Of a stretch of 64,000 nucleotides of DNA, positions 8,246-38,149 are shown piece after piece. A program made the translations under genes and the position numbers. The DNA is from Aciduricibacillus chroicocephali (lineage in GTDB: Bacteria; Bacillota; Bacilli; Bacillales; Amphibacillaceae): positions 634,001 to 698,000 of the forward strand of contig NZ_CP129113.1 in NCBI RefSeq assembly GCF_030762805.1, in the 5' to 3' direction. The first letter of the stretch is position 1, and every line of letters starts with the position of its first letter. The notes beneath the pieces are model-generated. The model saw nothing but the letters and a program-made list of their open reading frames with translations. It was not told where the DNA came from and made no database searches.

Positions 8246-9781
8246 ATGATCAATAACGAAATGATTCTCGTCCTGGACTTCGGGAGCCAGTACAATCAGC
8301 TGATTACTCGCCGTATCCGTGAATTTGGCGTGTACAGCGAATTGCATTCACACAAGATCACAATTGAAAAAATCAAGGAAATGAACCCGAAAGGTATCAT
8401 CCTTTCCGGTGGCCCGCACAGTGTTCTTGATGAGAACAGCTTCCGTTGCGACGAACGTATCTTTGAACTTGGCATTCCTGTATTCGGTATTTGCTACGGC
8501 ATGCAGTTGATGTCTGTACATTTCGGTGGACGTGTTGAGACTTCCAACCAGCGTGAGTACGGTAAGGCCGAAATCACACTAGGAAATAATGCTGAATTGT
8601 TCGCAGGTACACCTGATGGACAGACAGTATGGATGAGTCATGGTGACAAAGTTGCCGAAATTCCTGAAGGTTTCCAAGTGGATGCAACAAGCCCATCAAC
8701 ACCATTCGCAGCGATGAGCGATCCGTCTCGCAACCTTTACGGTGTTCAGTTCCACCCGGAAGTTCGTCACTCCGAGTATGGTAACGATGTGTTGAAGAAC
8801 TTTGTCTTCAACATTTGTAAAGCAACAGGCGACTGGACAATTGGCAACTTCATCGAAATGGAACTTGAAAAGATCCGTAAAGAAGTTGGCGATAAGAAAG
8901 TATTGTGTGCCTTGAGCGGCGGCGTTGACTCTTCTGTAGTAGCAGCATTGATCCACAAAGCAATCGGCGATCAATTAACATGTATCTTCGTAGATCATGG
9001 CTTGCTTCGCAAAAACGAAGGCGACGAAGTGATGAAAGTATTCGCAGAAGATTTCCATATGAACATCATTCGCGTGAATGCACAAGAACGTTTCCTTTCT
9101 AAGCTTGCTGGTGTAGCAGATCCAGAGAAAAAACGTAAAATCATCGGTAACGAATTCATCTATGTATTCGATGATGAAGCGTCTAAATTGAAAGACATCG
9201 ATTATTTGGCACAAGGTACGTTGTACACAGATATCATCGAAAGTGGTACTGAAACAGCACAAACAATCAAATCTCACCACAATGTTGGCGGCTTGCCAGA
9301 AGACATGCAGTTCAAATTGATTGAACCGCTTGACACATTGTTCAAAGATGAAGTACGTGCACTTGGTACAGAACTTGGCTTGCCAGATCATATCGTTTGG
9401 CGCCAGCCATTCCCAGGTCCGGGTCTTGCAATCCGTGTTCTTGGTGAAGTAACAGAAGAAAAGCTTGAAATCGTCCGCGAATCCGACTGGATCCTACGTG
9501 ATGAAATCGCAAAAGCTGGTCTTGAACGCGATATCTGGCAGTACTTCACAGTACTTCCGAACATCAAGAGTGTCGGCGTAATGGGCGATGGCCGTACGTA
9601 CGATCACACAATCGGTATCCGTGCTGTAACATCTATCGACGGTATGACTTCTGACTGGGCTCGTATCCCGTTTGAAGTATTGGAGCAAGTCTCCCGCCGC
9701 ATCGTTAATGACGTTCAGAACGTTAACCGCGTTGTGTATGATATTACTTCTAAGCCACCTGCGACTATTGAGTGGGAATAA
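8246..9781 (+). CDS. guaA: GMP synthase (glutamine-hydrolysing)
   Basis: Converts XMP to GMP with ATP and glutamine. The 511 residues match the family length. An N-terminal class I glutaminase domain has Cys in GICYGMQ (about residue 82) and FHPEV; the ATP pyrophosphatase domain has the loop LSGGVDSS (about 224); the C-terminal dimerisation domain ends [15 protein letters not shown] precedes the ATG. Codon use is strongly biased, as expected for a well-expressed gene. It stands alone with its own terminator, and no purine riboswitch or PurBox is visible before it, unlike pbuG and purE. Confidence 0.97.
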
Positions 9782-12098: not shown

Positions 12099-12713
12099 TT
12101 ACTTAAGAAAGCTGTCTTTCTCAATTTTGACATCACCGAGATCCTCGATTGTGAACTTGCTGTCATAAGCATCAAACCAGTCGGGGAGGACTCTCTCGTA
12201 CAAGACTTTTTGAGAAATCTGTTTCAGTTCGGCTTCGCTAATTTTATATTCTTTTAAGTAGGTTTTTATAGCAGAAGGGCTAGAGACTGTAAATTCATCG
12301 AGATTTTCATCGTTAATCAGCACGTATTCTCTCAAGCTTTTGTTGGTAAAAGTATACTCATAACAAATGTTAAAGAAGATATTATACGCAAGCTTTTGAG
12401 AATAGGTTATGTTTAGTTGCCGATCGTCGAATAAGAACAAGAACCCTAGATGATCTCCTTTTTTAAACACAGGCGTTTTATATACCTCGCTGAACATATT
12501 TTCTACATAATTCACGTTATCTCTTGAATTCCGAACAAGATTATCCATGCGGGCAAAGCCAATATGTTTTTGCTTTTTTATTGTCTCAGCTTCAATTTGA
12601 TACATTTCTTCAAATACGTTTTTGGGTAATAAATTAATATTATTAATAAAAATCCATCCAAGCAAAACGAACAGTAAGCTGAACCTAACCATAAAATCGC
12701 GTTTATTTTTCAT
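12099..12713 (-). CDS. Small single-pass membrane protein, paralogue A
   Basis: 204 residues with one N-terminal membrane helix (about 8-25) and an extracytoplasmic domain. It is one of four paralogues in 3.5 kb. Shared motifs are PKNVFEEMY, GFARMDN, FLFLFDD, the stretch DWFDAYDSKFTIEDLG and a KDSFLK C-terminus. ATG 12713 has GGAGG five bases before; a start at 12731 has no ribosome site. It follows paralogue B (stop at 12743) by 30 bases, so the two form an operon. It has the same length as paralogue C (204 residues) and is its closest relative, including in the 3' DNA. I do not recognise the family. Confidence 0.8.
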   Translation of the reverse strand: MKNKRDFMVRFSLLFVLLGWIFINNINLLPKNVFEEMYQIEAETIKKQKHIGFARMDNLVRNSRDNVNYVENMFSEVYKTPVFKKGDHLGFLFLFDDRQLNITYSQKLAYNIFFNICYEYTFTNKSLREYVLINDENLDEFTVSSPSAIKTYLKEYKISEAELKQISQKVLYERVLPDWFDAYDSKFTIEDLGDVKIEKDSFLK

Positions 12714-12742
12714 GAGGACCTCCAAATACAAACAAGCCTTGA

Positions 12743-13408
12743 TTATTTAAGGAAGCTGTCTTTCTCAATTTTGACATTACCCAGATCCTCGACTGAGAAC
12801 TTGCTGTCATAAGCATCAAACCAGTCAAGAAGGACTCTATTGTATAGCACTTCATGGGCGATTTGTTTCAGTTTAGACTCTTTTATATTGTAACGATTTA
12901 AATATCTTCTTATTTCGTTTCGATTTTTAGTATTAAACTCCTCTAGATTTTCATCATAAATTGAAACATATTCATTTAATTTGCGTGATTTTTGGTCATA
13001 TACGTAACGGATATTTAGAGAAACGTCCATTTTTAAATCTTTGGAATAGGTAATATGAATCCTGTTTTTATCAAATAGAAAAAGAAAACGTATAGCTTCA
13101 TCTTTTTCTAAAACTGTCTCTTCGTAATCCTCTGCCGCCATATTTCCTAGCATCATTCCGGATTTCCGATTCCAATGCTGAATGTTTTCCATATTAGGAA
13201 ACCCGTCATCTGTATACTTGTTCATTGTCTTTTGTTCAGCAGTGTACATTTCATCGAATACGTTTTTAGGCACAAAAGCATCGCTAAGAATGATCCGGAA
13301 CAGCAAGAAGAGTAGGATGAATAAAGTGGCTAATAACATAATGTGTTTTTTGAATCGTGTCCTGGCTGTTCGCGTATTTGTTTCTGCAGAAAAGAAATCA
13401 ACGTTCAT
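12743..13408 (-). CDS. Small single-pass membrane protein, paralogue B
   Basis: 221 residues. It has a 20-residue polar N-terminal extension, one membrane helix (about 23-42) and the same outer domain as A, C and D: PKNVFDEMY, GFPNMEN, FLFLFDKN, DWFDAYDSKFSVEDLG and final KDSFLK. AAGGAGG precedes ATG 13408. It is the first gene of the B-A pair. The N-terminal extension is shared only with the broken copy D, so B and D are the 'first gene' type and A and C the 'second gene' type. Function unknown; no enzyme motif seen. Confidence 0.8.
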   Translation of the reverse strand: MNVDFFSAETNTRTARTRFKKHIMLLATLFILLFLLFRIILSDAFVPKNVFDEMYTAEQKTMNKYTDDGFPNMENIQHWNRKSGMMLGNMAAEDYEETVLEKDEAIRFLFLFDKNRIHITYSKDLKMDVSLNIRYVYDQKSRKLNEYVSIYDENLEEFNTKNRNEIRRYLNRYNIKESKLKQIAHEVLYNRVLLDWFDAYDSKFSVEDLGNVKIEKDSFLK

Positions 13409-13591
13409 TTGTCTCTACCTCCTTAAGCTGAAATTACTCCTTTTATACTGTATGTCCTTGATCAGCATTTTGTCTTTTTCTAATTACTTCTCTTTATAAC
13501 AGATTTATATGTTAATAGTTAATACGCTAATAGGTACATATGTTTCTATTTTGTTATATAGTATTTTAAAGTATTAAATAGGGGGGAAATG

Positions 13592-14155
13592 ATGAACGAT
13601 ATAAAAAGGTGTGACTGGGCAAACAAAAATGAGATAGAACAGGAATACCATGATCGAGAATGGGGCATTCCGGTTCATGATGATAGAAAGCTATTTAAGT
13701 TGTTAATGTTAGAAGGGAAGCAAGCTGGTCTTAGTTGGGTAACAATCCTGAAGAAAATGGATACACTTTGTGAGGCTTTCGATGATTTTGATCCAGAAAT
13801 CCTAATTACATATGACGATAAAAAGATAGCATCTCTTTTAGAAAATGAAGGCATCATTCGAAATAAGCTAAAGGTGAATGCTGTTATTAACAACGCCGCT
13901 GCGTATTTTAAGCTATGCGAAGAATTTAATTCATTGGATAATTACCTATGGGCTTACGTAGATTATAAAACAATTGTGAATGCATGGCAGCATTCTGAAG
14001 AGGTACCTGCTAGTACGCCGTTATCCGATGAAATCAGCAAAGACTTAAAAAAGCGAGGTTTCAAGTTTGTTGGTTCTACAACGATTTATGCATTTATGCA
14101 GTCGATTGGAATGGTAAACGATCATTTAACGTCCTGTGCTTTTTATCAGCGGTAG
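13592..14155 (+). CDS. tag: DNA-3-methyladenine glycosylase I
   Basis: Excises 3-methyladenine from alkylated DNA to start base-excision repair. 187 residues, typical length. The four zinc ligands of Tag are present: Cys in KRCDW and His in YHDREWG near the N-terminus, and His and Cys in NDHLTSC at the end. LEGKQAGLSWVTIL is the family's substrate-pocket motif. Two ATGs are adjacent; 13592 has better spacing (five to six bases) from the GGGGGG ribosome site than 13589. It is on the opposite strand to the four paralogues and sits exactly between the two copies of the duplicated module. Confidence 0.93.
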   Translation: MNDIKRCDWANKNEIEQEYHDREWGIPVHDDRKLFKLLMLEGKQAGLSWVTILKKMDTLCEAFDDFDPEILITYDDKKIASLLENEGIIRNKLKVNAVINNAAAYFKLCEEFNSLDNYLWAYVDYKTIVNAWQHSEEVPASTPLSDEISKDLKKRGFKFVGSTTIYAFMQSIGMVNDHLTSCAFYQR

Positions 14156-14173
14156 GAGCATAGAAATAACAAG

Positions 14174-14211
14174 AAGGACCTAACCGAAAGCAACAGTTAG
14201 GTCCTTCCTGT
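14174..14211 (+). terminator. tag terminator
   Basis: AAGGACCTAAC and GTTAGGTCCTT form an 11-bp perfect stem, followed by CCTGTTTT. Confidence 0.8.
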
Positions 14212-14237
14212 TTTCTGGGATTCTTCTTCAAGAGCAG

Positions 14238-14852
14238 CTACTTAAGAAAGCTGTCTTTCTTAAATTTCACACTACCCAGATCCTCGATTGTGAACTTGCT
14301 GTCGTTTGCTTCAAACCAGTCGGGGAGGACTCTTTTGTATAGAACATTATGTGCAGTGGATTTTAGTTCTTTTTCAGTAATCTTGTATGTTTTTAAATAA
14401 CCTTTTATTTGTTCTATTTCTTTTACTGTGAAAGTCTCTGGCAATTGTTCATCATTAATTGTAATAAACTGGTTTAATTGATTTTCCTCATTCTTATATT
14501 GGTAGCGAATCATCAGGAATATATCCTTTTTAAGCTCTTTTGAGTAAGTTATATGAAGTTCCTGGTCATCGTAAAGAAATAAAAAGCTTATCGATTCACC
14601 CTCATTTAAAACAGATTTTTTATAATGTTCGTTAATCATATTCCCATCATAGGTTACTAGCTCTCGGGATTTGTTACGTATATTTTCCATGTTGGCAAAG
14701 CCAATTTTCTTCTGTTCTTTTATTGTTTTTCTCTCGATGTGATACATTTCATCGAATACATTATTTGGGGAAAGAGCTTTGTAATAGTAGCTTCCAATAA
14801 TCAAGGACAGTAATAGGGTACACCCAATCATAAATCTTCGTTTATTTCTCAT
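14238..14852 (-). CDS. Small single-pass membrane protein, paralogue C
   Basis: 204 residues with one membrane helix (about 8-25). It has the family motifs PNNVFDEMY, GFANMEN, FLFLYDD, DWFEANDSKFTIEDLG and KDSFLK. ATG 14852 has GGAGG five bases upstream; an ATG at 14882 overlaps the stop of copy D but has no ribosome site. It is the partner of A in the other copy of the module: same length, same 30-base distance from the upstream gene, and nearly the same last 40 bases. Probably depends on transcription through the broken copy D. Function unknown. Confidence 0.8.
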   Translation of the reverse strand: MRNKRRFMIGCTLLLSLIIGSYYYKALSPNNVFDEMYHIERKTIKEQKKIGFANMENIRNKSRELVTYDGNMINEHYKKSVLNEGESISFLFLYDDQELHITYSKELKKDIFLMIRYQYKNEENQLNQFITINDEQLPETFTVKEIEQIKGYLKTYKITEKELKSTAHNVLYKRVLPDWFEANDSKFTIEDLGSVKFKKDSFLK

Positions 14853-14881
14853 GTGAACCTCCGAATACAAATAAACTGTCA

Positions 14882-15562
14882 TTATTTAAGGAAGCTGTCT
14901 TTCTCAATTTTGACATTACCAAGCTTATCGATTGAGAATTTGCTGTCATATGCTTCTAACCAATCGGATAGGACTCTTTTGTACAAAACATCATGAGCAG
15001 ATTGCATTAGTTCATTTTTATTTATTCTTTATCTATTCAAATAAGTTCTGATTGCTTGCTTATTTTTGACGGTAAAATTAGATAGATTCTCATCATGTAT
15101 AACAATATAGTTTTTTAAAGTTTTATTTGATACGCAATAATCATAACGTATATGCAGAGAAATATGATCTACTAATCGGATAGCGTAGGTTATATCTGCG
15201 GACTTTTTATTAAATAAAAATAAAAAACCTAAACTCTCCCCATCATTGAGGACGTTACTTTTGTACTCTTCAGAAAGGTAGAGTTCTTTATAGTTAGTAC
15301 GATTCCGATCCCTAGATACAATTTCCTCCATATTGGAAAAACCAATACGTTCCTGTTTTTTACTTGCCTTGATTTCCGAATAATACATTTCATCAAAAAT
15401 ATTCTTGGGAGTATAGGATTTCTTTAGAATTAAAATAGTTGCTACTGTAATGAATAATATGGCTAATAACATAATGTATTGCTGGAGTCTTGTTTTGCTA
15501 TTTTGCTTTTTTGTCTTTCCAGTTGAGGAATTGATATCTATTGTTTTCACCTCTTTAAGCAA
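14882..15562 (-). pseudogene. Paralogue D, broken by an in-frame TAA and lacking a clear start
   Basis: The frame matches paralogue B along its whole length: polar N-terminal extension, membrane helix, PKNIFDEMY, GFSNMEE and FLFLFNK. At 15029-15031 a TAA replaces the Tyr that follows YLNR in copy B. The frame then runs on as RINKNELMQSAHD to VKIEKDSFLK and ends at 14882, so a single nonsense change separates the two parts. The 5' end is also poor: aligned with B's ribosome site and start, the expected ATG is ATA (15541-15539), leaving only a TTG at 15562 with no good ribosome site. It would lack the last 50 residues. A sequencing error in the TAA is the alternative. Confidence 0.75.
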
Positions 15563-15658: not shown

Positions 15659-15690
15659 TGGGTCGAACTAATAAGTAAATTGAATAGAGC

Positions 15691-15760
15691 TGAGCGTATA
15701 ATTTCAGTAATAGGGTCTGAGAGTCTCTACCGAATCGCCGTAAATGGTTCGACTACGCAC
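15691..15760 (+). promoter_or_regulatory. Guanine riboswitch (purine class) upstream of pbuG
   Basis: All purine-aptamer elements are visible: P1 arms GCGTA (15693) and TACGC (15754), the TATAAT-like J1/2, a P2 hairpin, the J2/3 core TCTCTACC, the P3 loop CCGTAAAT, and the 3' core GACTACG. The base that pairs with the ligand (position 74 in xpt numbering) is C, so guanine or hypoxanthine is expected, not adenine. Binding should favour the downstream terminator and shut off uptake. Confidence 0.92.
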
Positions 15761-15819
15761 AGGAACAGCAGGATAGGTCTATACTTTATCTTGTTTGTTG
15801 TTATTGTTGTGCGGCATGC

Positions 15820-15933: not shown

Positions 15934-17265
15934 GTGAAAAAGTATTTTCAGTTTGAAGAGCTTGGCACAAATTATAAAAGAGAGTTCCTTGCCGGGCTAA
16001 CAACATTCCTTGCGATGGCGTACATCCTGTTCGTTAATCCGCAGACACTCGGATTAGTAGGAATCGACCTGCCTAAAGGTGTAACGGGCATGGATCCGGG
16101 TGCGGTATTTACAGCGACAGCTTTGGCTGCGGCAGTAGGATCTTTATTCATGGGGATTGTAGCGAAATATCCTGTTGTATTGGCACCTGGTGTCGGTCTA
16201 AGTGCATTCTTCGCATTTACAGTAGTCCTTGGTTATGGAATTCCTTGGCAGACAGCTTTGTCAGGCGTTCTTGTATCTGGTATTTTCTTTATTTTACTTA
16301 CGATGACAGGTCTGCGTGAGAAAATCATCAACTCCATTCCTGCGAACTTGAAGCAGGCAGTTGGTGTTGGTATTGGTTTCTTCATCGCCTTTATCGGTTT
16401 GAAGAGTGCGGGCATTATTGTTTCCAATCCATCGACATTCGTTGCAGTTGGTGACTTTACGAAACCATCCGTATTGCTTGCAGTTTTCGGTATTGTCATT
16501 TCCATCGTCTTCTTGACATTGAAAATTCAAGGCGGTATTTTCTATGGCATGATCCTAACAGCTATTGCCGGTATGGTAACAGGTCTGATTGATCATCCGA
16601 AGGGGATCGGTGATATCGTTGGCAGTGTCCCAAGTCTAGCTCCGACTTTTGGACAAGCATTTTTCCATTTTGATGATTTGTTCACTATTCAAATGCTTCT
16701 CGTTATCCTGACATTCTTGTTCGTTGATTTCTTTGATACGGCAGGTACGCTTGTTGCAGTTGCTTCACAGGCTGGTCTCATGCGTGACAACAAATTGCCA
16801 CGCGCAGGCAGAGCTCTCGTAGCAGATTCCAGTGCTACAGTGGCCGGCGCAATCCTTGGAACTTCAACAACAACTTCATATATTGAGTCGACTGCAGGTG
16901 TTGCAGCAGGCGGACGTTCCGGTTTTACAGCTGTTGTGGCAGCTGGATTGTTCCTAATTTCTTTGTTCTTCTCCCCATTGCTTAGTGTAATCACACCAGA
17001 GGTGACAGCACCAGCACTCGTTATTGTAGGGATTTTAATGTCGACATCACTCGGCAATATCGAGTGGGATCGCTTTGAAGTGGCAGTACCATCATTCTTC
17101 ACGATTGTAGCTATGCCGCTCACATACAGCATTGCGACAGGGATCGCGATGGGATTTGTCTTCTACCCAATTACAATGATTTTGAAGGGTAAAGCAAAAG
17201 AAATCCATCCGATTATGTATATGCTGTTCGTGATCTTTATTCTTTATTTCATATTCTTAAGCTAG
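15934..17265 (+). CDS. pbuG: Guanine/hypoxanthine permease, AzgA-type NCS2
   Basis: A 443-residue multi-pass permease that imports hypoxanthine and guanine. It begins FEELGTNYKREFLAGLTTF and has the AzgA-group motifs MAYILFVNP, GVGLSAFFAF, FVDFFDTAGTL and GTSTTTSYIES. Start codon GTG at 15934 follows GGAAGGGAAG. Riboswitch control by guanine fits a purine importer. In B. subtilis pbuG lies next to guaA; here about 5.8 kb of accessory genes separate them. Confidence 0.93.
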   Translation: MKKYFQFEELGTNYKREFLAGLTTFLAMAYILFVNPQTLGLVGIDLPKGVTGMDPGAVFTATALAAAVGSLFMGIVAKYPVVLAPGVGLSAFFAFTVVLGYGIPWQTALSGVLVSGIFFILLTMTGLREKIINSIPANLKQAVGVGIGFFIAFIGLKSAGIIVSNPSTFVAVGDFTKPSVLLAVFGIVISIVFLTLKIQGGIFYGMILTAIAGMVTGLIDHPKGIGDIVGSVPSLAPTFGQAFFHFDDLFTIQMLLVILTFLFVDFFDTAGTLVAVASQAGLMRDNKLPRAGRALVADSSATVAGAILGTSTTTSYIESTAGVAAGGRSGFTAVVAAGLFLISLFFSPLLSVITPEVTAPALVIVGILMSTSLGNIEWDRFEVAVPSFFTIVAMPLTYSIATGIAMGFVFYPITMILKGKAKEIHPIMYMLFVIFILYFIFLS

Positions 17266-27938: not shown

Positions 27939-27983
27939 AAAACCGAACATTAAATATAAAATCAATAATAAAGTTCGAAATTT
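27939..27983 (+). promoter_or_regulatory. Pair of inverted PurBoxes (PurR operator)
   Basis: AAAACCGAACATTA (27939-27952) and, inverted, AAAGTTCGAAATTT (27970-27983) both fit the B. subtilis PurBox consensus AWWWCGAACWWT. The first has a CC before GAAC. They are about 17 bases apart and the second ends two bases before the -35, as in known PurR-controlled promoters. PurR should repress when PRPP is low. Confidence 0.85.
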
Positions 27984-28014: not shown

Positions 28015-28030
28015 CTTATCAAGAAAAGCA

Positions 28031-28101
28031 TTCCTCGTATAATCTTCTGAATATGGCAGAAGAGTTTCTACCCAATACCTTAAATATTGGCCTATGAGGA
28101 G
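28031..28101 (+). promoter_or_regulatory. Guanine-class purine riboswitch upstream of purE
   Basis: P1 arms TCCTC (28032) and GAGGA (28096), P2 CTTCTG/CAGAAG, J2/3 core GTTTCTACC and P3 CCAATA/TATTGG are all clear. The 3' core reads GCCTATG rather than the usual GACTATG. The ligand-pairing base (74) is still C, so guanine is expected, but neighbouring position 73 is C instead of A. Confidence 0.92.
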
Positions 28102-28191
28102 ATGGAGGTACGGTTCGCCGTTCCTTTGCCGGAAAGAGATTTAGCCCTAATAAGGCTACCTTTAATTTCGGTACACAGATTCGGAATCCCG

Positions 28192-28238: not shown

Positions 28239-28320
28239 ATCGTTTTGCCATATTGAAAAAATGGGAAAAGCGGATATTAAAGAGAATGAATAATTTTAGC
28301 TGATAGAGATGGAAGGCGGG

Positions 28321-28818
28321 ATGATTTTGGCAGTTGTAGGCGTCATTATGGGAAGCATTTCAGATTGGGAAACGATGCAGCATGCATGCACAGTGCTGGA
28401 TGAACTTGAGATTACTTATGAGAAGGATGTTATCAGTGCTCATCGGACACCTGATGATATGTTCAAATATGCGAAGTCAGCACGCGAACGCGGCTTGAAA
28501 GTGATTATTGCTGGAGCAGGTGGCGCGGCACATCTTCCTGGGATGACAGCCTCCCAGACGACATTGCCGGTCATCGGTGTTCCAGTCCAATCGAAAGCAC
28601 TTAATGGCCTTGATTCACTTCTGTCAATCGTTCAAATGCCAGGCGGTGTGCCGACAGCAACGGTAGCAATCGGTAAGGCAGGAGCCACGAATGCAGGTTT
28701 GCTTGCAGCCCAAATCCTCGGTACTTCAGATGACTCAATTGCAGAGAAACTGCAAAAATATCAATCAGGCTTGAAAGATAAAGTTGCAGAAATGAGGGAT
28801 GATCTTGCAAACAGATAA
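28321..28818 (+). CDS. purE: N5-carboxyaminoimidazole ribonucleotide mutase
   Basis: Class I PurE, 165 residues, converts N5-CAIR to CAIR in IMP synthesis. [13 protein letters not shown] and SAHRTPD are the substrate-loop motifs, with [11 protein letters not shown] after. ATG 28321 has GGAAGG upstream with five-base spacing; ATG 28309 would add four residues but has no ribosome site. First gene of the pur operon; its end overlaps purK by 20 bases. Confidence 0.95.
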
Positions 28819-29947
28819 ACAGAAACTCACCATATTGCCACCTCAGACAATTGGAATTATCGGTGGGGGCCAGTTGGGAAGAATGATGGCCCTAGCTGCT
28901 CGTCATATGGGATATGGCATTGCTGTACTTGATCCGACTCCGAACTGTCCGACAGCACAAGTTGCGGACATTCATATAGAAGCTGCTTATGATGACATGG
29001 ACGGGATTCGCAAGCTTACGGAAGTGAGTGACGTCATTACATACGAATTCGAGAATGTTGACCTCGAAGCAGCGGCCTACATTGAAGCGCAGGGCAAACT
29101 TCCTCAAGGGGCGCGCGCGCTTGAAGTGACTCAGAATCGTAAGCGAGAAAAGGAATTGATCCGAGATCTCGGCCTTCCTGTTCCCGAGTTCGCGATTGTT
29201 GAAAGTGCTGAAGAGGCAAAAGAGGCACTCTCAACATTCGTACTTCCAGCAGTCATCAAGACTTGTCGCGGAGGGTATGACGGCAAAGGTCAAGTGAAAA
29301 TTGAATCAGCTCAGGACTTTGCTGAAGCAATTGAGCTTGCTGATAAGCAGTCACCATGCATCATTGAGCAGTGGATTCCTTTTGAACGTGAAATCTCTGC
29401 CGTATTTACGAGATCACAAGATGGTGACATTGAATTTTTCCCGATTGCGGAGAATGACCATCGCGACCACATCCTATATAAAACGACAGTTCCAGCTAAT
29501 GTGAGTGGACAAGTTATTGAACGTGCAAAAGCAGCAGCAGGTCTTCTTGCTGACGAGATGGATATCGTCGGGACATTTACTGTTGAGATGTTTGTGAGAG
29601 GCGAAGACATCTTCTTGAATGAGATGGCTCCGCGACCGCATAATTCAGGTCACTACACAATAGAAGCTTGCAATATATCACAATTTGCACAGCATGTTCG
29701 CGCTATCTGTGGATTACCGCTCATGCCGGTTCGACTTCTTGGTGACACTGTCATGATTAACGTTCTCGGAGAAGACTTGCCAGGTGTACTTCGGGCGATG
29801 CCGCTTTCTGAAGATGCTTTTGTCCATCTTTATGGAAAAGCGGAACCGAAAGATAAACGAAAAATGGGCCATGTCACGTTCCTGGCTGAAACAAAAGAAC
29901 AGCTGGAACGCATGATCAATGATTACGAGAAAGCAACACAAAATTAA
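28799..29947 (+). CDS. purK: N5-carboxyaminoimidazole ribonucleotide synthase
   Basis: ATP-grasp enzyme of 382 residues that carboxylates AIR to N5-CAIR for PurE. It has [18 protein letters not shown] at the N-terminus, [14 protein letters not shown] for ATP binding and [13 protein letters not shown] near the C-terminus. ATG 28799 overlaps the purE 3' end; an alternative TTG at 28805 lies six bases after GAGGG and could be the real start. The next gene in B. subtilis is purB; here a 116-base gap leads straight to purL. Confidence 0.95.
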
Positions 29948-30063
29948 TTAATAAAAAGTTTTGAGCGGATGATGTGCCAATGCACGGACGCTTGCAGCAG
30001 AGGCGGAAAAACGCCATTAAACATACAAAATCCATTCTTTTTCACTTAAAAGGAGAGCTAACG
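29948..30063 (+). other. purK-purL junction lacking purB, purC, purS and purQ
   Basis: Only 116 bases separate the purK stop from purL. In B. subtilis this place holds purB, purC, purS and purQ, about 3 kb. I see no recognisable remnant of any of the four in either strand, no terminator and no repeat at the joint. The right end contains AAAAGGAG, the purL ribosome site. Confidence 0.8.
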
Positions 30064-32283
30064 ATGACGAAAAATAATCAAATCCAGCCGGAACAGATTG
30101 AGCAGGACAAGATTTATGCGGAAATGGGTCTATCTGACAAGGAGTACAACCTGATTAAAGATACGCTCAAGCGTCATCCGAACTTTGTTGAAACAGGACT
30201 CTTCTCAGCAATGTGGTCAGAGCACTGCAGCTATAAGACTTCCAAGCCACTACTTAGAAAATTCCCAACGAAAGCACCTCAAGTTCTTCAAGGACCTGGT
30301 GAAGGTGCAGGTGTTGTTGATATCGGTGATAACCAGGCAGTGGTGTTCAAAATCGAATCTCATAACTCACCATCAGCTGTTGAACCATTTGAAGGTGCGG
30401 CAACTGGTGTTGGCGGAATCATCCGTGACGTCTTCTCAATGGGTGCGAAGCCGATTGCTTCTATGAACTCACTTCGTTTCGGAAACTTGGATAATGCTAA
30501 GGACAAGGAACTCTTCTCAGAAGCAATCCGCGGTATTGCATACTATGGCAACGCGATTGGTGTTCCAACTGTCGGCGGTGAAGTTGGCTTTGACGCTTGC
30601 TATCATGAGAAGCCACTTGTCAATGCAATGGTTGTTGGACTTCTAGATCATGATGGATTGCAAAAGGGTCTTGCTGACGGACCAGGCAACAGTGTTCTTT
30701 ATGTAGGTGCGCCAACAGGCCGCGATGGTATCGGTGGTGCTGCATTCTCCTCCAGTGAAGTTGATACGGAAGAGGACAACACATCTGCAGTTGCAATCGG
30801 TGATCCTGAAGTTGAGAAGCGCTTGATCGAAGCTTGCCTTGAAGTGTGCAAGAACGATGCTCTTGTCGGTATGCAGGACATGGGTGCGGCTGGTCTGACA
30901 TCTTCTTCAAGTGAAATGGCTTCTAAGTCCGGTACAGGGATTGAAATGAACATGGATCTAGTGCCGACTCGCGAAGAGAATATGGATGCGTATGAATTGA
31001 TGCTTTCAGAATCTCAAGAAAGAATGCTGCTCGTCGTCAAAAAGGATCGTGAACAAGAAATTATCGACATTTTCAAGAAACACGATATTCCAGCAGTCGT
31101 TATTGGTAAAGTCATCGAGGAGAAAGTACTTCGTCTGATCGAAAAAGGTGAAGTTGTATGTGACCTTCCTGTTGATGCACTTGCTGAAGACGTGCCGACA
31201 AACCACTTGCCATCAAAAGAGGCGGAATATTTCAAAGAGTTCCAGAAACATCCAGTCGCTATTCCGGAAGTGAAAGATCAGGCAGAAGCTTTGAAACAGT
31301 TGCTTCAACAGCCGACAATCGCTAGCAAAGAGTGGGCATATAGCCAGTTCGATGCTCCTGCAGATGACAGTGTCGTATTCGGCCCTGGTTCAGATGCGGC
31401 AGTTGTGAAGATCGAAGGCAAGGACAAAGCAATCGCGATCACTACAGACTGTAATGCACGTTACATCTACCTCGATCCGAACATGGGCGGTAAGATCGCA
31501 GTAGCTGAAGCAGCACGTAATATCGTTGCTACTGGAGCAAAACCAATTGCGCTTACAGATGGTTTGAACTACGGTGATCCAACAAATCCGGAAGTATTCT
31601 GGCAGCTTGAAGAGAGCATCAATGGTCTCTCAGAAGCTTGTGAAGTGCTCGAAACACCTGTTATTAGCGGTAACGTATCACTTTACAACCAGTCTAACGG
31701 CAAGCCAATCTTCCCGACTCCGATTATCGGTATGGTAGGTCTCTTCGAATCTCTTGATCATGTAACACCGAGCCACTTCCAGGAAGCTGGCGATGCAATC
31801 TATGTAATTGGTGAAACAAAAGCAGAATTCGGCGGATCTGAACTTCAGAAAATTGTTGATGGTGATTACAGTGGAAAAGCTCCGCACATCGATTTGCATA
31901 AAGAAGCAAAGCGTCAAGAACAGCTTCTTGAAGCAATCAAAAAAGGCCTTATCGAATCAGCACATGATCTTTCAGAAGGTGGTCTTGGTGTAGCACTTGC
32001 CGAAAGCACATTCGGAGGCAAAGGCCTTGGAGCTTCATGTGAACTTGCTGGTGATGCGACAACAGTTCTATTCAGTGAATCTCAGTCACGTTTCCTTGTG
32101 ACAGTGAAACTTGAGAACAAAGCAGAATTCGAAAAGCTTGTTGAAGCAGCACAGGAAATCGGAACAGTAGACGAAAAGCCGGAACTTAAAGTAACAATCG
32201 ACGGCAAACTTGTGATTGAGGAAGATGTTCAGCAACTCAATAAGCTTTGGAAGGAAGCAATTCCAAGCGTATTGAAATCCTAA
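30064..32283 (+). CDS. purL: FGAM synthase, small-type PurL subunit
   Basis: 739 residues, the small PurL form (about 740) that makes FGAM only in complex with PurS and the glutaminase PurQ. There is no PurQ domain fused, unlike the 1300-residue enterobacterial PurL. Visible motifs are [10 protein letters not shown] (about residues 46-55), [18 protein letters not shown] and a second AIR-synthetase-like repeat. The normally invariant HNHP core reads HNSP (about residues 100-103): the first His is kept and the second is Ser. AAAAGGAG precedes ATG 30064. The stop lies inside the start region of purF. Confidence 0.93.
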
Positions 32284-33668
32284 GCAAAAATGAGGAATGC
32301 ACTGTGTTTGGTATATGGGGTCACAATTCAGCAGCCGAAATCACCTACTATGGCCTGCATGCTCTTCAGCATCGCGGCCAAGACGGTGCCGGCATTGCAA
32401 CGACGAATGGCACTGAACTGAATATTCATAAGGGCATGGGCTTGCTGAACGATGTATTTGAGCGGGCAGAGTTCTCCAAGCTGCCCGGCCATGCGGCGAT
32501 CGGCCATGTCCGTTATCCGTCTGGTGGCGAAGGAAGCATTAATGACGTCCAGCCATTCCTTTTCCGTTCTCAGTCGGAGAATGTAGCCATCGCACATGAC
32601 GGCGCCATTATGAACAAGAATGAGCTTCGTACGGAATTGGAATCACAAGGAAGCATTCTGCAAACATCAGCCGATCCGGAAATCCTTGCCCATCTGATGA
32701 AACAGAAGGGCAGGAAGGTTTCCAGAGATACGATTATTGAGGCTCTTCGTAAAATTGTTGGAGCCTACGCGTTTCTCATCATGACAGATGACAAGCTGTA
32801 TGCAGCTCTCGGTTCACGAGGGATCAGGCCTTTGTCAATCGGTAAGCTGAAGGATTCATACGTCGTTGCATCGGAAACATGTGCCTTCGATATCATTGGA
32901 GCGAAGTTCGAAAGAGAAGTTATGCCTGGAGAACTTGTCGAAATCAGTGATGAAGGAATCAAGTCAACACGTTTCGCTTTACGTGAACAGCGTGCACTAT
33001 GTGCCATGGAATACGTCTATCTCTCAAGACCAGACAGTGATTTGAATCATGTGAATGTACATGCTTCACGAAAACGGATGGGAATTGAGCTTGCCAAAGA
33101 AGCGCCTATCGAAGCGGATGTAGTAACAGGTGTTCCGGATTCAAGCATCTCTGCAGCAATTGGGTATGCGGAAGAGAGCGGGCTTCCTTATGAAATCGGC
33201 ATTATTAAAAACCGTTACATCGGACGTACATTCATCCAGCCGACACAGGAATTGAGAGAACAGGGTGTTAAGATGAAGCTTTCTCCAGTTCGCGGAATTG
33301 TGGAAGGTAAACGTGTCGTCATGATCGATGATTCGATTGTTCGTGGTACGACAAGCAGACGGATTGTACGGATGTTGAAAGAGGCAGGCGCGAAAGAAGT
33401 ACATGTACGCATCGCTTCTCCACTCATCACGGATCCATGCTATTATGGAGTCGATATGTCGACAAAAGAAGAATTAATTGCAGCAAATCATACATTAGAA
33501 GAAATAGGACAAATCATCGAAGCAGACAGCATCGCGTTTCTTTCTGTAGATGGCCTTGAACAGGCGATTGTTAAAGACAAGACGATCAACCAGGGAATTT
33601 GCAATGCTTGCATGACTGGTAAATATCCGGTTACTTACAATCATGTGACCGAAACAGCAAGCAAATAA
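32247..33668 (+). CDS. purF: Amidophosphoribosyltransferase
   Basis: Makes phosphoribosylamine from PRPP and glutamine, the committed step. It has an Ntn glutaminase domain, with catalytic Cys in [11 protein letters not shown] exposed after propeptide removal; the PRPP site is [15 protein letters not shown]; and an iron-sulfur-cluster Cys lies in [10 protein letters not shown] near the end. No ATG is in frame before the Cys. The candidates are TTG 32247 (17 residues before Cys, inside purL) and ATT 32271 (nine residues, nearer the B. subtilis propeptide of 11). GGAAGGA at 32249 would suit the ATT better. Coordinates use the TTG. The start overlaps purL by 37 bases. Confidence 0.9.
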
Positions 33669-33688
33669 AGAAGAGGGAGCGGGAAACT

Positions 33689-34711
33689 ATGTCAGATGCA
33701 TACAGAGCGGCAGGCGTGGATGTCGAAAAAGGCTACGAAGCTGTAGAACGAATGAAAAAGCATATTGCAAAAACAAAACGCAGTGAAGTACTTGGAGGGA
33801 TCGGTTCTTTTGCGGGACTGTTTGAACTCACTTCTTTCAAATATGACGAACCTGTGCTTGTCTCCGGAACTGATGGAGTCGGTACGAAACTGAAGCTCGC
33901 CTTCCAGATGGACAAGCATGATACGATCGGCATTGATGTCGTTGCCATGTGTGTGAATGATATTGTGGCTCAAGGAGCAGAACCGCTCTTCTTCCTCGAT
34001 TATATTGCTTGTGGAAAGAATGACCCTGCTGTAATTGAACAAATTGTTGCTGGTATCTCTGAAGGCTGTGTTCAAGCTGGGGCAGCACTTGTCGGTGGTG
34101 AAACTGCGGAAATGCCTGGTATGTATTCCGAAGATGAGTATGACTTGGCAGGATTCACAGTCGGAATCGCTGACAAGCCGAAGCTCATTACAGGCGAACA
34201 TATCGAAGCTGGTGATGTTGTCATTGGTCTTGCTTCTAGCGGTGTTCATTCCAACGGGTTCTCACTCGTTCGAAAAATTACAGATAAGCTCGATTTAAAG
34301 AAAACATATGAAGGCTTCGATCGTCCGCTTGGTGAAGCTTTGCTTGAACCGACACGCATTTATGCGAAACAGATGAAGGCTGTTTTGCAAGAGGTAAATG
34401 TAAAAGGTGTTTCCCATATTACGGGTGGCGGTTTCTATGAAAACCTTCCACGTGTCGTGCCTGCAGGTCTCGGTTTTGAAATTGACCGTTCAGCTTGGGA
34501 AGTACCACATGTGTTCAACTTCTTGCAAAAAGAAGGCAACATCTCCGATAAAGATATGTTCGGCGTCTTCAATATGGGCATTGGCCTTGCGCTCGTCGTA
34601 GCTCCTGAAGACCAAGATAAAGTCCTCTATGCACTTGGACAGGCAGGCGAGAAAGCATCTGTCATTGGTAAAGTGACAGACACTGAAGGTGTGCAGTTCA
34701 TCAATGGCTAA
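33689..34711 (+). CDS. purM: Phosphoribosylformylglycinamidine cyclo-ligase
   Basis: Closes FGAM to AIR with ATP. 340 residues, typical. It starts [17 protein letters not shown] and has [27 protein letters not shown] and THITGGGF-like [22 protein letters not shown] precedes the ATG. The stop overlaps the purN start in ATGGCTAA, so the two are translationally coupled. It supplies AIR to PurK/PurE, whose genes open the operon. Confidence 0.96.
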
Positions 34712-35270
34712 AGTGAAAGCGGCGGTATTTGCTTCTGGTTCAGGATCAAATTTCGAGGCAATTATGAAAGCTGGAGAACTGCCTTGTGAGATTACCTTAC
34801 TTGTTTGTGATAAGCCTGGAGCTGGTGCCGTTGAACGGGCAAAGCGCCTTGGTGTGCCAGTGCTTGAACTTAGTCCAAAACAGTTTAAGGATAAAGCAGC
34901 TTATGAGCAAGCTTTGGTGAAACGTCTGCGCGAAGAAGGTATTGAATGGATTTTTCTCGCAGGTTACATGCGTTTAATCGGGCCTGATCTGCTTGGAGCT
35001 TATGAAAATCGGATACTGAATATCCACCCGTCCCTTCTTCCGGATTTCCCGGGAGCGGATGGAATTGGGGATGCCTTTAGAGCAGGTGTCAATAAGACAG
35101 GTGTTACCATTCATTATGTTGATGCAGGGATGGATACAGGACCTATTATTAAGCAGCGTGAAGTTGACATCTTGCCAAATGACACAATAGATACACTCGC
35201 GGAGCGGATTCACAAAGTGGAACATGAATTGTACCCTGAAGTGATTCGTGAAGTATTAACACATAAATAG
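34704..35270 (+). CDS. purN: Phosphoribosylglycinamide formyltransferase
   Basis: 10-formyl-THF-dependent GAR transformylase, 188 residues. It has [13 protein letters not shown] at the N-terminus, the folate-binding core [14 protein letters not shown] and the catalytic [15 protein letters not shown]. The start is ATG 34704, overlapping the purM stop; the upstream ATG at 34689 is inside purM without a ribosome site. In this family the Asp after GVTIHYVD is also catalytic and is present. Confidence 0.95.
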
Positions 35271-35284
35271 TTCAAAAACTTTCC

Positions 35285-35308
35285 AAGGGCCACTGTGCCC
35301 TTCTTTTT
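35285..35308 (+). terminator. Intercistronic hairpin between purN and purH
   Basis: AAGGGC and GCCCTT pair around CACTGT, then CTTTTTAC. This has terminator form but is short, so it may cut only part of the transcripts or stabilise an RNA end inside the operon. Confidence 0.5.
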
Positions 35309-35342
35309 ACATAACGGAGAATTGAGAAATGGAGGAGAAAGT

Positions 35343-36875
35343 ATGAAGAAACAAGCATTGCTTAGTGTTTCAGATAAAACAGGCATTACGGATTTTGCTG
35401 CAGGTCTTGTGAAGCAAGGTTTCGAGATCATCTCTACTGGCGGCACATTGAAGGCGATAGAAGAAGCAGGGATTCCTGTAAAAGCTGTCGATGAAGTGAC
35501 AGGTTTTCCAGAAATTATGGATGGACGTGTGAAAACGTTGCATCCAAAAGTACATGGCGGTTTGTTGGCAAAGCGTGACAACCCGGAACATCGCCAGGCA
35601 CTTGCTGATAATGAAATTGATACAATCGACCTCGTTGCTGTTAACCTTTATCCGTTCAAAGAGACTTTGGCAAAGCCAGGCGTCTCTGATGATGAAATTA
35701 TTGAGAACATTGATATCGGTGGTCCAACAATGCTGCGCTCAGCTGCTAAGAACTTCGCGGATGTACTTGTAGTCGTAGATCCTTCTGATTATCCAAAAGT
35801 GCTGGAAGCATTGGAGCAAGACCAGACAGACTATAAACTTCGCCACGGACTTGCAGCGAAAGTATTCCGTCATACAGCTCATTATGATGCTATGATTGCA
35901 CGTTATTTCACAGAGGCAACTGGCGAAGCTTTCCCTGAGAACTACACAGTGACTTATGAAAAAGTTCAAGATTTGCGTTATGGGGAAAATCCTCACCAGC
36001 ATGCAGCATTTTATAAAACACCTGTTTCTGCTGCATTCAGCCTTTCATCAGCGAAACAGCTTCACGGTAAGGAACTCTCTTATAACAATATTCAAGATGC
36101 CAATGCAGCACTTGAAATTGTTCGTGAATATGCAGAGCCGGCAGCAGTAGCGGTCAAACATATGAACCCATGCGGTGTTGGAGTCGGTGACAACATCGAG
36201 CAGGCTTTCCAGCGTGCCTATGATGCAGATCCTGTTTCTATTTTCGGCGGCATCGTTGCTTTGAATCAGCAAGTTGACAAAGCGACAGCCGAAATTCTAA
36301 GCGGTATTTTCCTTGAAATTATTATTGCCCCAGGATTTGACCAGGATGCACTTGATATCTTGACTCAGAAAAAGAACATTCGTCTCCTTGAGATGGACAT
36401 GGTCGATACGGAAGCACGCTCTCACAAGCTTACTTCTATTAATGGAGGAATGTTGATCCAGGATGCAGACCATGCAGAATTCAAGGATGATCAGCTTGCA
36501 GTCGTGACAAAACGTGCCCCTTCAGAAGAAGAAATGAAAGACTTGATCTTCGCTTGGAAGGCAGTAAAACATGTGAAATCAAATGCAATTGTCCTTGCTA
36601 AAGGTTGTCAAACAGTAGGAATCGGTGCTGGCCAGATGAACCGTGTCGGCGCAGCGAAAATTGCGATTGAACAGGCTGGAGAAGCAGCTGAGGGCGCAGC
36701 ACTTGCATCTGATGCATTCTTTCCAATGCCGGACACAGTCGAAGCAGCAGCTGCTGCAGGAATTAAAGCGATTATCCAGCCGGGTGGATCGAAGCGTGAC
36801 CAGGAATCAATCGATGCATGTGATAAACACGGAATCGCGATGGTGCTAACAAGCATGCGTCATTTCAAACATTAA
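35343..36875 (+). CDS. purH: AICAR transformylase / IMP cyclohydrolase
   Basis: Bifunctional enzyme for the last two steps to IMP. 510 residues from ATG 35343 (GGAGGAGAAAGT upstream); the frame from 35295 would run through the preceding hairpin. The N-terminal cyclohydrolase domain has [13 protein letters not shown] and GRVKTLHP. The transformylase domain has KHMNPCGVG with the catalytic Lys-His and ends [14 protein letters not shown]. Follows purN after a 72-base gap containing a hairpin. Confidence 0.96.
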
Positions 36876-36901
36876 TCTTTACTGCGAAAGGCGGAATTCC
36901 A

Positions 36902-38149
36902 ATGAACATACTTGTCATCGGACGCGGTGGCCGCGAACATGCCATTGTCCAAAAGCTTGCCGAGAGTGCACAAGCAGATACAATATATGCAGCACCAGGT
37001 AATGCAGGTATCGCAAACATTGCTACATGTGTCGCCATTGATGAAATGGATTTTGGTGCACTTATCGACTTTGCAAAGAATGAAAATATCGGTCTGACAA
37101 TTGTTGGACCGGAAGCACCGCTCAGCGCCGGTATTGTGGACAAATTCCAGCAAGCTGGTCTTCGTGTCTTTGGACCTTCGGAAGCTGCAGCTGCAATCGA
37201 GGGTAGCAAAAGCTTTGCGAAAGATTTCATGAAAAAACATGATGTTCCTACAGCTGCCTATGAAGTTTTTGCAGATCCTGAAAAGGCAAAAGCATATATC
37301 CGCAAGCAAGGTGCACCAATCGTAATTAAAGCGGATGGACTTGCTGCCGGAAAAGGTGTTGTCGTGGCAGAGACAGTTGAGGAAGCTGAACAAGCTGTAG
37401 ATGACATGCTTGTTTCCAAAGCCTTTGCTGAGGCAGGTGCAACGGTCGTTATTGAGGAATTCCTTGCTGGTCGTGAATTTTCATTGATGGCACTTGTGAA
37501 CGGTCGCAATGTATACCCACTTACAACAGCTCGTGATCATAAACGAGCGTTTGATGGGGATGCAGGTCCAAATACGGGAGGCATGGGTTCCTATGCTCCG
37601 GTTGATGATATTCCAAGTGATGCATATGATTTTGCGGTAAAGGAAATTGTCCAGAAGACTGCTGATGGCATGGCAGATGAGGGCGAGCCATTTACAGGTA
37701 TTCTCTACGCAGGTCTCATGATGACCGAACAAGGTCCTAAAGTGATTGAATTCAACGCTCGTTTCGGTGACCCTGAGACGCAAGTAATTTTGCCGCTTAT
37801 GCAAAATGATTTTGTTCAAGTTGTAAATGATGTCCTGGATGAGAAAAATCCTTCTTTGAAATGGAAAGATGGCTACTGCCTTGGAGTCGTTGTAGCTTCA
37901 GCAGGATATCCGGGAAGCTACGCCAAAGGCAAGGAACTTCCTGAATTGCATGAAAAGGCAGATACGTATTTTGTTCATGCAGGGACGAAGAAACAAGATG
38001 GAAATTTTGTCTCTGATGGCGGACGTGTTCTATTCGCAGGAGCTTACGGATCCACTTTTGCTGAAGCTCGTAAAAAGGCATATGATGCTATTTCGCCGTT
38101 TGAAGGAAACGAAGAATTCTTCTACAGAACGGATATTGGCGAAAAATAA
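36902..38149 (+). CDS. purD: Phosphoribosylamine-glycine ligase
   Basis: ATP-grasp GAR synthetase of 415 residues, the second pathway step. VIGRGGREHAI opens the protein; PIVIKADGLAAGKGV and GREFSLMAL are ATP-grasp motifs; EFNARFGDPETQ holds metal ligands. AAAGGCGGAATTCC precedes ATG 36902. It is the last gene of the operon and is followed by a strong terminator, as in B. subtilis. Confidence 0.96.
   Translation: MNILVIGRGGREHAIVQKLAESAQADTIYAAPGNAGIANIATCVAIDEMDFGALIDFAKNENIGLTIVGPEAPLSAGIVDKFQQAGLRVFGPSEAAAAIEGSKSFAKDFMKKHDVPTAAYEVFADPEKAKAYIRKQGAPIVIKADGLAAGKGVVVAETVEEAEQAVDDMLVSKAFAEAGATVVIEEFLAGREFSLMALVNGRNVYPLTTARDHKRAFDGDAGPNTGGMGSYAPVDDIPSDAYDFAVKEIVQKTADGMADEGEPFTGILYAGLMMTEQGPKVIEFNARFGDPETQVILPLMQNDFVQVVNDVLDEKNPSLKWKDGYCLGVVVASAGYPGSYAKGKELPELHEKADTYFVHAGTKKQDGNFVSDGGRVLFAGAYGSTFAEARKKAYDAISPFEGNEEFFYRTDIGEK

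Follow-up and report, generated by a model that had tools for sequence, protein, structure and literature searches.

A purine operon lacking purB, purC, purS and purQ in Aciduricibacillus chroicocephali, and a possible change of nitrogen donor from glutamine and aspartate to ammonia

Few pathways are as conserved across life as de novo purine synthesis, which takes its nitrogen from glutamine and aspartate. The window considered here, a stretch of 64,000 nucleotides from Aciduricibacillus chroicocephali, carries a purine operon in which purL follows purK after 116 bases, at the place where relatives have purB, purC, purS and purQ. The question raised by this locus is whether such an operon can still make purines and, if so, from what. 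The answer favoured on balance is that de novo synthesis still works and now draws its nitrogen from ammonia in place of glutamine and aspartate, and that a distant PurC paralogue, termed divPurC, makes AICAR from CAIR.

The operon and its control elements

Eight pur genes, purE to purD, span positions 28309-38149, all pass the NCBIfam cut-offs, and outside the gap they stand in the Bacillus-type order, purE-purK-purL-purF-purM-purN-purH-purD. The features of the window are as follows.

8246..9781, forward strand: guaA, with the glutaminase motif GICYG intact
15674..15775, forward strand: second purine riboswitch (Rfam RF00167, 77.8 bits), upstream of a permease-like gene
15934-17265: the permease-like gene, named by eye and without an NCBIfam match
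27940..27952, forward strand: PurR box (PurBox) upstream of purE, an exact match to WWWCCGAACAWTW
28015..28114, forward strand: purine riboswitch aptamer ahead of purE (Rfam RF00167, 77.4 bits)
28309..28818, forward strand: purE (TIGR01162, 226.1 bits)
28799..29947, forward strand: purK (NF004675, 500.7 bits)
29948..30063, forward strand: joint where relatives have purB, purC, purS and purQ
30064..32283, forward strand: purL, small type, 739 aa (NF002290, 972.8 bits), whose PurS and PurQ partners were not found in the genome
32292..32303, forward strand: GAGGAATGCACT, once the PurF codons Glu-Glu-Cys-Thr and now a GAGGA of Shine-Dalgarno type followed by a spacer
32304..33668, forward strand: purF, 454 aa, with a proposed GTG start right after the lost Cys1; the old ATG is a Lys codon
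33689..34711, forward strand: purM (TIGR00878)
34689..35270, forward strand: purN (TIGR00639), the ORF taken from its first possible start
35295..36875, forward strand: purH (NF002049), the ORF taken from its first possible start
36902..38149, forward strand: purD (TIGR00877)

A sequence-only reading of the window had described purE-purK, a gap of 116 bases and then purL-F-M-N-H-D, together with a small PurL; coordinates and NCBIfam matches bear out the former, and NF002290 the latter. In an exact-match scan of the genome WWWCCGAACAWTW, which we take to be the PurBox consensus, occurs at eight sites versus one for the reversed control; four of the eight lie within ORFs and the other four precede purE, divPurC, a permease-like gene and an allantoin-type operon. 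The riboswitch before purE has C at its specificity position and presumably reads guanine.

Two further observations concern the surroundings. At 12099-15562 of the window four small minus-strand ORFs with a common P(K/N)N(V/I)F(D/E)EMY motif form a local paralogue family, and elsewhere in the genome (G000:C1:1939000-1949000, L168) allantoin-breakdown-like genes, recognised by eye, lie with a uracil/xanthine-type permease and a PurR-box-like site.

Genes missing from the genome

Family profile searches covered the whole genome, one contig of 2,730,537 bases that is 97.29% complete. They returned zero matches to PurS, nothing above cut-off for PurQ or PurB, and no PurA. Two weak PurQ matches proved to be HisH, which sits inside the his operon, and a PdxT-like ORF; two weak PurB matches, a FumC-like protein and ArgH (which adjoins ArgG), were rejected by gene context. 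Relocation of purB, purS, purQ or purA is ruled out by the same genome-wide searches. In two other genomes (G014 and G005; gene names there were read from the sequences) purA lies between dnaC and walR, an interval that holds no gene in the window's genome. With PurQ and PurS both absent from these searches, the components of a PurLQS-type, glutamine-dependent FGAM synthase are incomplete. The sole PurC match, at C1:2335629-2336273, reaches 114.8 bits versus a cut-off of 189.9 and is divPurC. Thus, of the four genes previously reported as missing between purK and purL, none lies there and B, S and Q were found nowhere else in the genome, but C persists as a distant paralogue.

A search of the window joint for relics of the lost genes gave nothing convincing (best score 29, purQ). 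In another genome, G023, the purK-purL joint (L259) measures 314 bases as far as the first PurL motif. It contains an inverted-repeat element that looks like a small mobile element, and in or beside this element lies a 21-residue purC-like stretch (score 43) that is possibly a relic.

The loss of PurB is coupled to that of PurA. Both are absent above cut-off from the same 5 of 41 genomes surveyed, and among 17 named genomes the same six lack both and the other 11 have both. Two genomes, recognised by identical coordinates, fall in both samples, so that nine distinct genomes are without PurA and PurB, all of them with divPurC; the absences are weak in L056 and G024 because the former is a MAG of 1.6 Mb and the latter is 90% complete. 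The sequences establish the gene losses, and also that PurA and PurB are repeatedly absent together. In Paenibacillus ginsengarvi (G074) two PurA matches exceed the cut-off (604.5 and 430.5 bits), and divPurC is present alongside a weakly similar PurC in the operon.

PurF without a translatable Cys1

The Cys of Glu-Glu-Cys-Gly-Val-Phe-Gly in B. subtilis PurF becomes residue 1 after processing, as described in extracts of PMC3261824. In canonical operons the PurF start lies about eleven residues ahead of this Cys. The comparison comprised 67 PurF rows, of which L070 is unreadable; L060, without purF in its locus sequence, was not counted. Where canonical purC is present, an in-frame start codon precedes Cys1 in every one of the 51 rows; in all 15 readable rows without canonical purC the Cys1 position lies ahead of the likely start codon. 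Zero in-frame starts precede Cys1 in 13 of these 15, where translation can begin only at an ATG or GTG two codons past the Cys position; that position is still Cys in seven, another residue in four and a stop in two, and L095 retains the EECG codons downstream of a stop. In these relatives the loss of a translatable Cys1 is plain from the reading frame.

The window and L048 have a Lys codon in place of the old ATG, and the one start left to them upstream is a distant TTG among the Leu-Trp codons that end purL, a weak candidate; whether Cys is lost in these two rests on which start codon is used. The window TTG, at 32247, is the sole in-frame upstream start, and no ribosome-binding site is evident by eye. 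The former Cys1 codon is 32298-32300 and is followed by Thr, in place of the Gly of most relatives; GAGGAATGCACT followed by GTG looks like former codons that now serve as a ribosome-binding site. The window PurF is very likely devoid of a translatable Cys1, and with the proposed start at GTG 32304 it has no N-terminal catalytic Cys of the kind found in glutamine-dependent PurF. According to work cited in PMC3261824, E. coli PurF with Cys1 replaced still uses ammonia.

The remainder of the glutaminase domain has eroded as well. Measured against 37 outside rows, the mean loss of conserved sites in this domain is 0.113 in 12 Cys-less Amphibacillaceae-type rows versus 0.047 in 14 control rows, and in the transferase domain 0.041 versus 0.040; Siminovitchia rows give a weaker contrast (0.077 and 0.059). 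Of the 15 Cys-less rows 6 have Asn101, presumably part of the glutaminase site, versus 51 of 51 others. Siminovitchia has lost PurF Cys1 and keeps PurS and PurQ. Five genomes with divPurC retain a full operon and a PurF with Cys (L037, L038, L107, G008 and G213, the last with a canonical pur operon), so Cys loss tracks the absence of canonical purC, not the presence of divPurC.

A divergent PurC

The paralogue lies at a separate locus:

G000:C1:2335593-2336273, reverse strand: divPurC, a distant PurC paralogue away from the pur genes, with a PurR box upstream

Of the named genomes searched, all 12 that have no canonical purC in their operon carry it, as do 3 of the 23 others; in the 41-genome survey it occurs in all seven PurS-less genomes and in 2 of the remaining 34, all nine copies being confirmed. 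Among 398 Bacilli genomes drawn, 37 carry it at E 1e-40, and in 19 of 20 contexts (from 20 of those 37 genomes) it is not adjacent to pur genes. In a distant lineage, G341, the operon reads divPurC-purL(large)-purE-purF-purM-purN-purH-purD, and among 24 upstream regions inspected by eye a PurR box precedes divPurC only in the window's genome and L033; this operon position and the PurR box place divPurC in purine synthesis. No neighbour family is shared by more than 3 of 9 divPurC loci, no Rfam element reaches the gathering threshold near divPurC in 20 sources, and in searches of plasmids and phages (the best 15 of 35 and the best 15 of 188 records) all matches are below 60% identity. In two further divPurC genomes, G459 and G101, no pur operon was found in the 200 kb covered of each. 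Many genomes, among them those of Siminovitchia, Cerasibacillus and Pseudogracilibacillus, have the paralogue together with PurB and PurA.

For the active site, 76 divPurC matches of at least 200 bits were reduced to 53 distinct proteins, and 87 canonical PurC matches of at least 120 bits to 76 distinct proteins of 225-290 residues; both sets were aligned with E. coli PurC and human PAICS, whose residue numbers are used here. Against the SAICAR synthetase family TIGR00081, divPurC scores 115.3 bits, below the equivalog cut-off of 189.9. Of 24 positions named in PMC9376930, 12 are unchanged in 53 of 53 divPurC, namely the ATP, Mg and CAIR positions G16, K17, K19, T40, E97, K131, D133, D137, K191, E193, D207 and R215, and several others differ. 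In human PAICS the carboxylates of aspartate are held by R232, K228, T40 and K191, as extracts of PMC9376930 describe. This set is incomplete in divPurC: T40 and K191 are kept, and Lys stands in the K228 column in 38 of 53, an uncertain figure in a gappy part of the alignment, but Arg stands at 232 in 0 of 53 versus 76 of 76 canonical PurC. Gly takes the place of D212 in all 53. The chain ends some 18-19 residues past the conserved Arg of the loop and so has no DKDxFR segment of the canonical kind, and a 7-residue insertion lies near the N-terminus. The replacement of canonical PurC by divPurC and the absence of Arg from the aspartate site are thus well documented at the sequence level. The functional meaning of the latter is suggestive, not proof, because E. 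coli Arg215, the equivalent of R232, is a CAIR contact according to PMC3261824, and because archaeal PurCs truncated before the Arg215-equivalent region may, in extracts of the same source, be active.

A possible ammonia-driven route, and its rivals

The loss of PurQ and PurS, the loss of PurF Cys1 and the partial loss of the aspartate clamp together point to ammonia replacing glutamine and aspartate. In the distant lineage G341 the glutaminase functions likewise look dead by their motifs: PurF starts MSGILG, with Ser in place of Cys, and PurL, of 1231 residues, has in its C-terminal glutaminase domain neither the GVCNGCQ nor the HPE motif that E. coli PurL carries. In such a route PurF without Cys1 would form phosphoribosylamine from PRPP and NH3, PurL without PurQ and PurS would convert FGAR and NH3 to FGAM, PurK and PurE would yield CAIR, divPurC would turn CAIR, ATP and NH3 directly into AICAR, skipping SAICAR, and PurH would then lead to IMP. 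Ammonia use by PurF and PurL is likely; direct AICAR formation by divPurC is less certain. PurB would be dispensable because AICAR would arise directly from CAIR, and if divPurC does amidate CAIR, PurB would be free to go once AMP was obtainable without PurA, a loss that indeed recurs.

Several observations weigh against this route. T40 and K191 are kept, the R232 equivalent touches CAIR and truncated PurCs may be active. Five divPurC genomes have a full operon and a Cys-bearing PurF, many others carry divPurC beside PurB and PurA, and divPurC lies mostly away from pur genes with few PurR boxes. Siminovitchia keeps PurS and PurQ, the glutaminase Cys persists in GuaA and HisH, the branch of L048 is long, and for the window and L048 the loss of Cys hinges on the start codon. 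The route moreover runs only to IMP, the supply of AMP without PurA and PurB falling outside its reach and calling for adenine salvage or another enzyme. We know of no route to AMP for genomes without PurA and PurB, which likewise counts against it.

The most durable alternative, credible although rather unlikely, is that divPurC is an ordinary SAICAR synthetase and that, where PurB is missing, SAICAR is cleaved by a different lyase, be it ArgH, FumC or some unrelated enzyme, with PurF and PurL perhaps using ammonia all the same. It draws support from the retention of most catalytic residues, from the occurrence of divPurC with PurB in many genomes and from the presence in the window's genome of ArgH and FumC, the weak PurB matches. 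Since divPurC stands beside PurB and PurA in many genomes, SAICAR production by it could persist there. The loss of the aspartate-holding Arg232 from every divPurC argues otherwise, and the lyase family is represented among the PurB matches of the window's genome only by FumC- and ArgH-like proteins. PurA is, furthermore, gone every time with PurB, which suggests that adenylosuccinate cleavage was abandoned and not handed over. Were SAICAR the product of divPurC, cells without PurB and without some other lyase would be preserving a well-conserved enzyme whose product leads nowhere.

Pathway decay is an improbable alternative. The cells would be auxotrophs for purines, or at the least for adenine, that lost PurQ, PurS, PurC, PurB, PurA and PurF Cys1 one after another and kept the remainder for thiamine, which draws on AIR, and for recycling of the AICAR that histidine synthesis yields. 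Several pathway steps are indeed missing, permease-like genes named by eye lie behind a purine riboswitch or PurR box, and L048 evolves about twice as fast as its sister L038 (branch lengths 0.22 versus 0.099), which could reflect relaxed selection there. Against this, purE and purK, unnecessary for thiamine, are kept in 7 of 7 BCSQ-less operons with the front end covered (the window, L039, L041, L048, L049, L056 and L259), the PurF transferase domain is as conserved as in controls, and Cys-less PurF and divPurC recur jointly in separate lineages. Selection on the remaining genes was estimated from L091, in which B, C and A are missing, and L093, which keeps B and A; for seven pur genes dS is 0.91 and dN 0.038 (dN/dS about 0.04), and for divPurC dS is 1.27 and dN 0.030, values that average PurB-less and PurB-bearing branches. 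The window itself offers comparisons only at saturated dS. Purifying selection is apparent in this one pair, the closest comparable one, and simple decay fits poorly with it. The dependence on external purines proposed in the sequence-only reading is thus not the best interpretation, given purifying selection in a comparable pair and the replacement of PurC, although a need for adenine alone may exist.

A separate glutaminase or amidase partner that channels ammonia to PurF, PurL and divPurC, so that the donor would not be free ammonium, overlaps with the preferred route and is likewise improbable. GuaA and HisH retain the glutaminase Cys, indicating that glutamine is still in use, and the intact GICYG of guaA suggests that GMP synthesis still depends on it. 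At conserved sites PurL shows 18 changes in SQ-less genomes versus 3 in the control group, a count that includes as changes the gaps of two truncated rows, and these sites could mark a new interface. No such partner, however, was noticed in the operons, and none occurs in more than 3 of 9 divPurC neighbourhoods.

Order of the losses

The joint was compared by a PurK search of named genomes, with 80 loci among the matches listed, the closest being Oceanobacillus profundus (PurK 68% identical). Among these listed matches purL directly follows purK in 5 of 80 loci (Virgibacillus indicus, Oceanobacillus chungangensis, Oceanobacillus sp. Castelsardo, Ornithinibacillus gellani and one MAG), the same E-K-L joint as in the window; G023 has an arrangement identical to the window's, and in G024 the contig stops within purL. 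A further 4 of the 80 listed loci are without C, S and Q and keep B (Pseudogracilibacillus auburnensis, two Pseudogracilibacillus MAGs and Cerasibacillus terrae), and 3 of 80 are without C and keep S and Q (Siminovitchia fordii, S. thermophila and Bacillus sp. HF117_J1_D, the last also without B). On quick trees built from the pur genes themselves, not species trees, the state of B changes six times with 67 rows of seven concatenated Pur proteins and five times with 84 rows, canonical C three times on both, and S/Q two and three times, respectively; an independent-pairs test comprised only three pairs, so significance was out of reach. The single deletion of one contiguous four-gene block that had been envisaged is not the pattern seen among relatives, where C, S and Q are lost with B kept and B changes separately on the trees; the partial-loss patterns and the shared joint imply stepwise losses. 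An assembly collapse at 29948-30063 can be discarded as having a negligible chance, the identical joint recurring in other genera in independent assemblies, and B, S and Q not being found elsewhere in the genome.

Some loci depart from these patterns. In Pontibacillus (L089, L090 and L097) purB lies several kilobases upstream of purE, not after purK, and in the pur tree a record titled Roseburia sp. 1XD42-34 (L061) clusters with Oceanobacillus jeddahense; its name is perhaps wrong. One assembly, G031, contains two pur operons, on contigs C2 and C23 (L267 and L266), one with S, Q and a Cys-bearing PurF, the other E-K-B-L-F-M-N-H-D with a Cys-less PurF; this CSQ-less operon (L266) repeats the pattern of Cys loss described above. 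As the assembly has 3% contamination, a mixture is possible.

Implications

Should the conversion to ammonia be confirmed, a group of Bacillus-like bacteria would possess a new version of one of biology's most universal pathways; ammonia could drive the purine route, there would be a shorter way to AICAR, and the source of AMP in these cells would come into question. A tentative and rather doubtful extension is a full purine pathway on free ammonia without SAICAR, adenylosuccinate, PurB or PurA, in which the PurC paralogue would amidate CAIR directly to AICAR and an unknown ammonia-using enzyme would convert IMP to AMP. Automatic annotation can mask such a change, purC falling under the cut-off and purF being named amidophosphoribosyltransferase. 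In the literature searched an AICAR synthetase of the PurC-paralogue type is not described, and no description of a purine-pathway variant with divPurC and without PurB/C/S/Q/A was recognised, the nearest account being in the extracts of PMC3261824.

Relation to known systems

The window operon resembles the Bacillus-type purEKBCSQLFMNHD in its order outside the gap, in the PurR box and riboswitch upstream and in the families of its eight genes. Unlike that operon, it is without B, C, S and Q in a genome also without A, its PurF very likely has no Cys1, and PurC has given way to a paralogue encoded elsewhere. That paralogue belongs by sequence to the same superfamily as the SAICAR synthetase PurC (TIGR00081), of which 1kut is the solved chain that scores best, and keeps twelve ATP, Mg and CAIR positions; it differs in its score under the cut-off, in the loss of the Arg232 and Asp212 equivalents and of DKDxFR, and in the 7-residue insertion.

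Extracts of PMC3261824 describe a crenarchaeal PurF', likewise a PurF homologue without the N-terminal Cys, for which ammonia-dependent activity was proposed as a prediction only. There a Cys-bearing PurF is also present, whereas the present operon has no PurF other than the Cys-less one and the pathway seems to bypass SAICAR as well. The NAD synthetases, as outlined in extracts of PMC3376133, offer a parallel in a family with glutamine-using and ammonia-using members, but they concern a single enzyme, and not a pathway.
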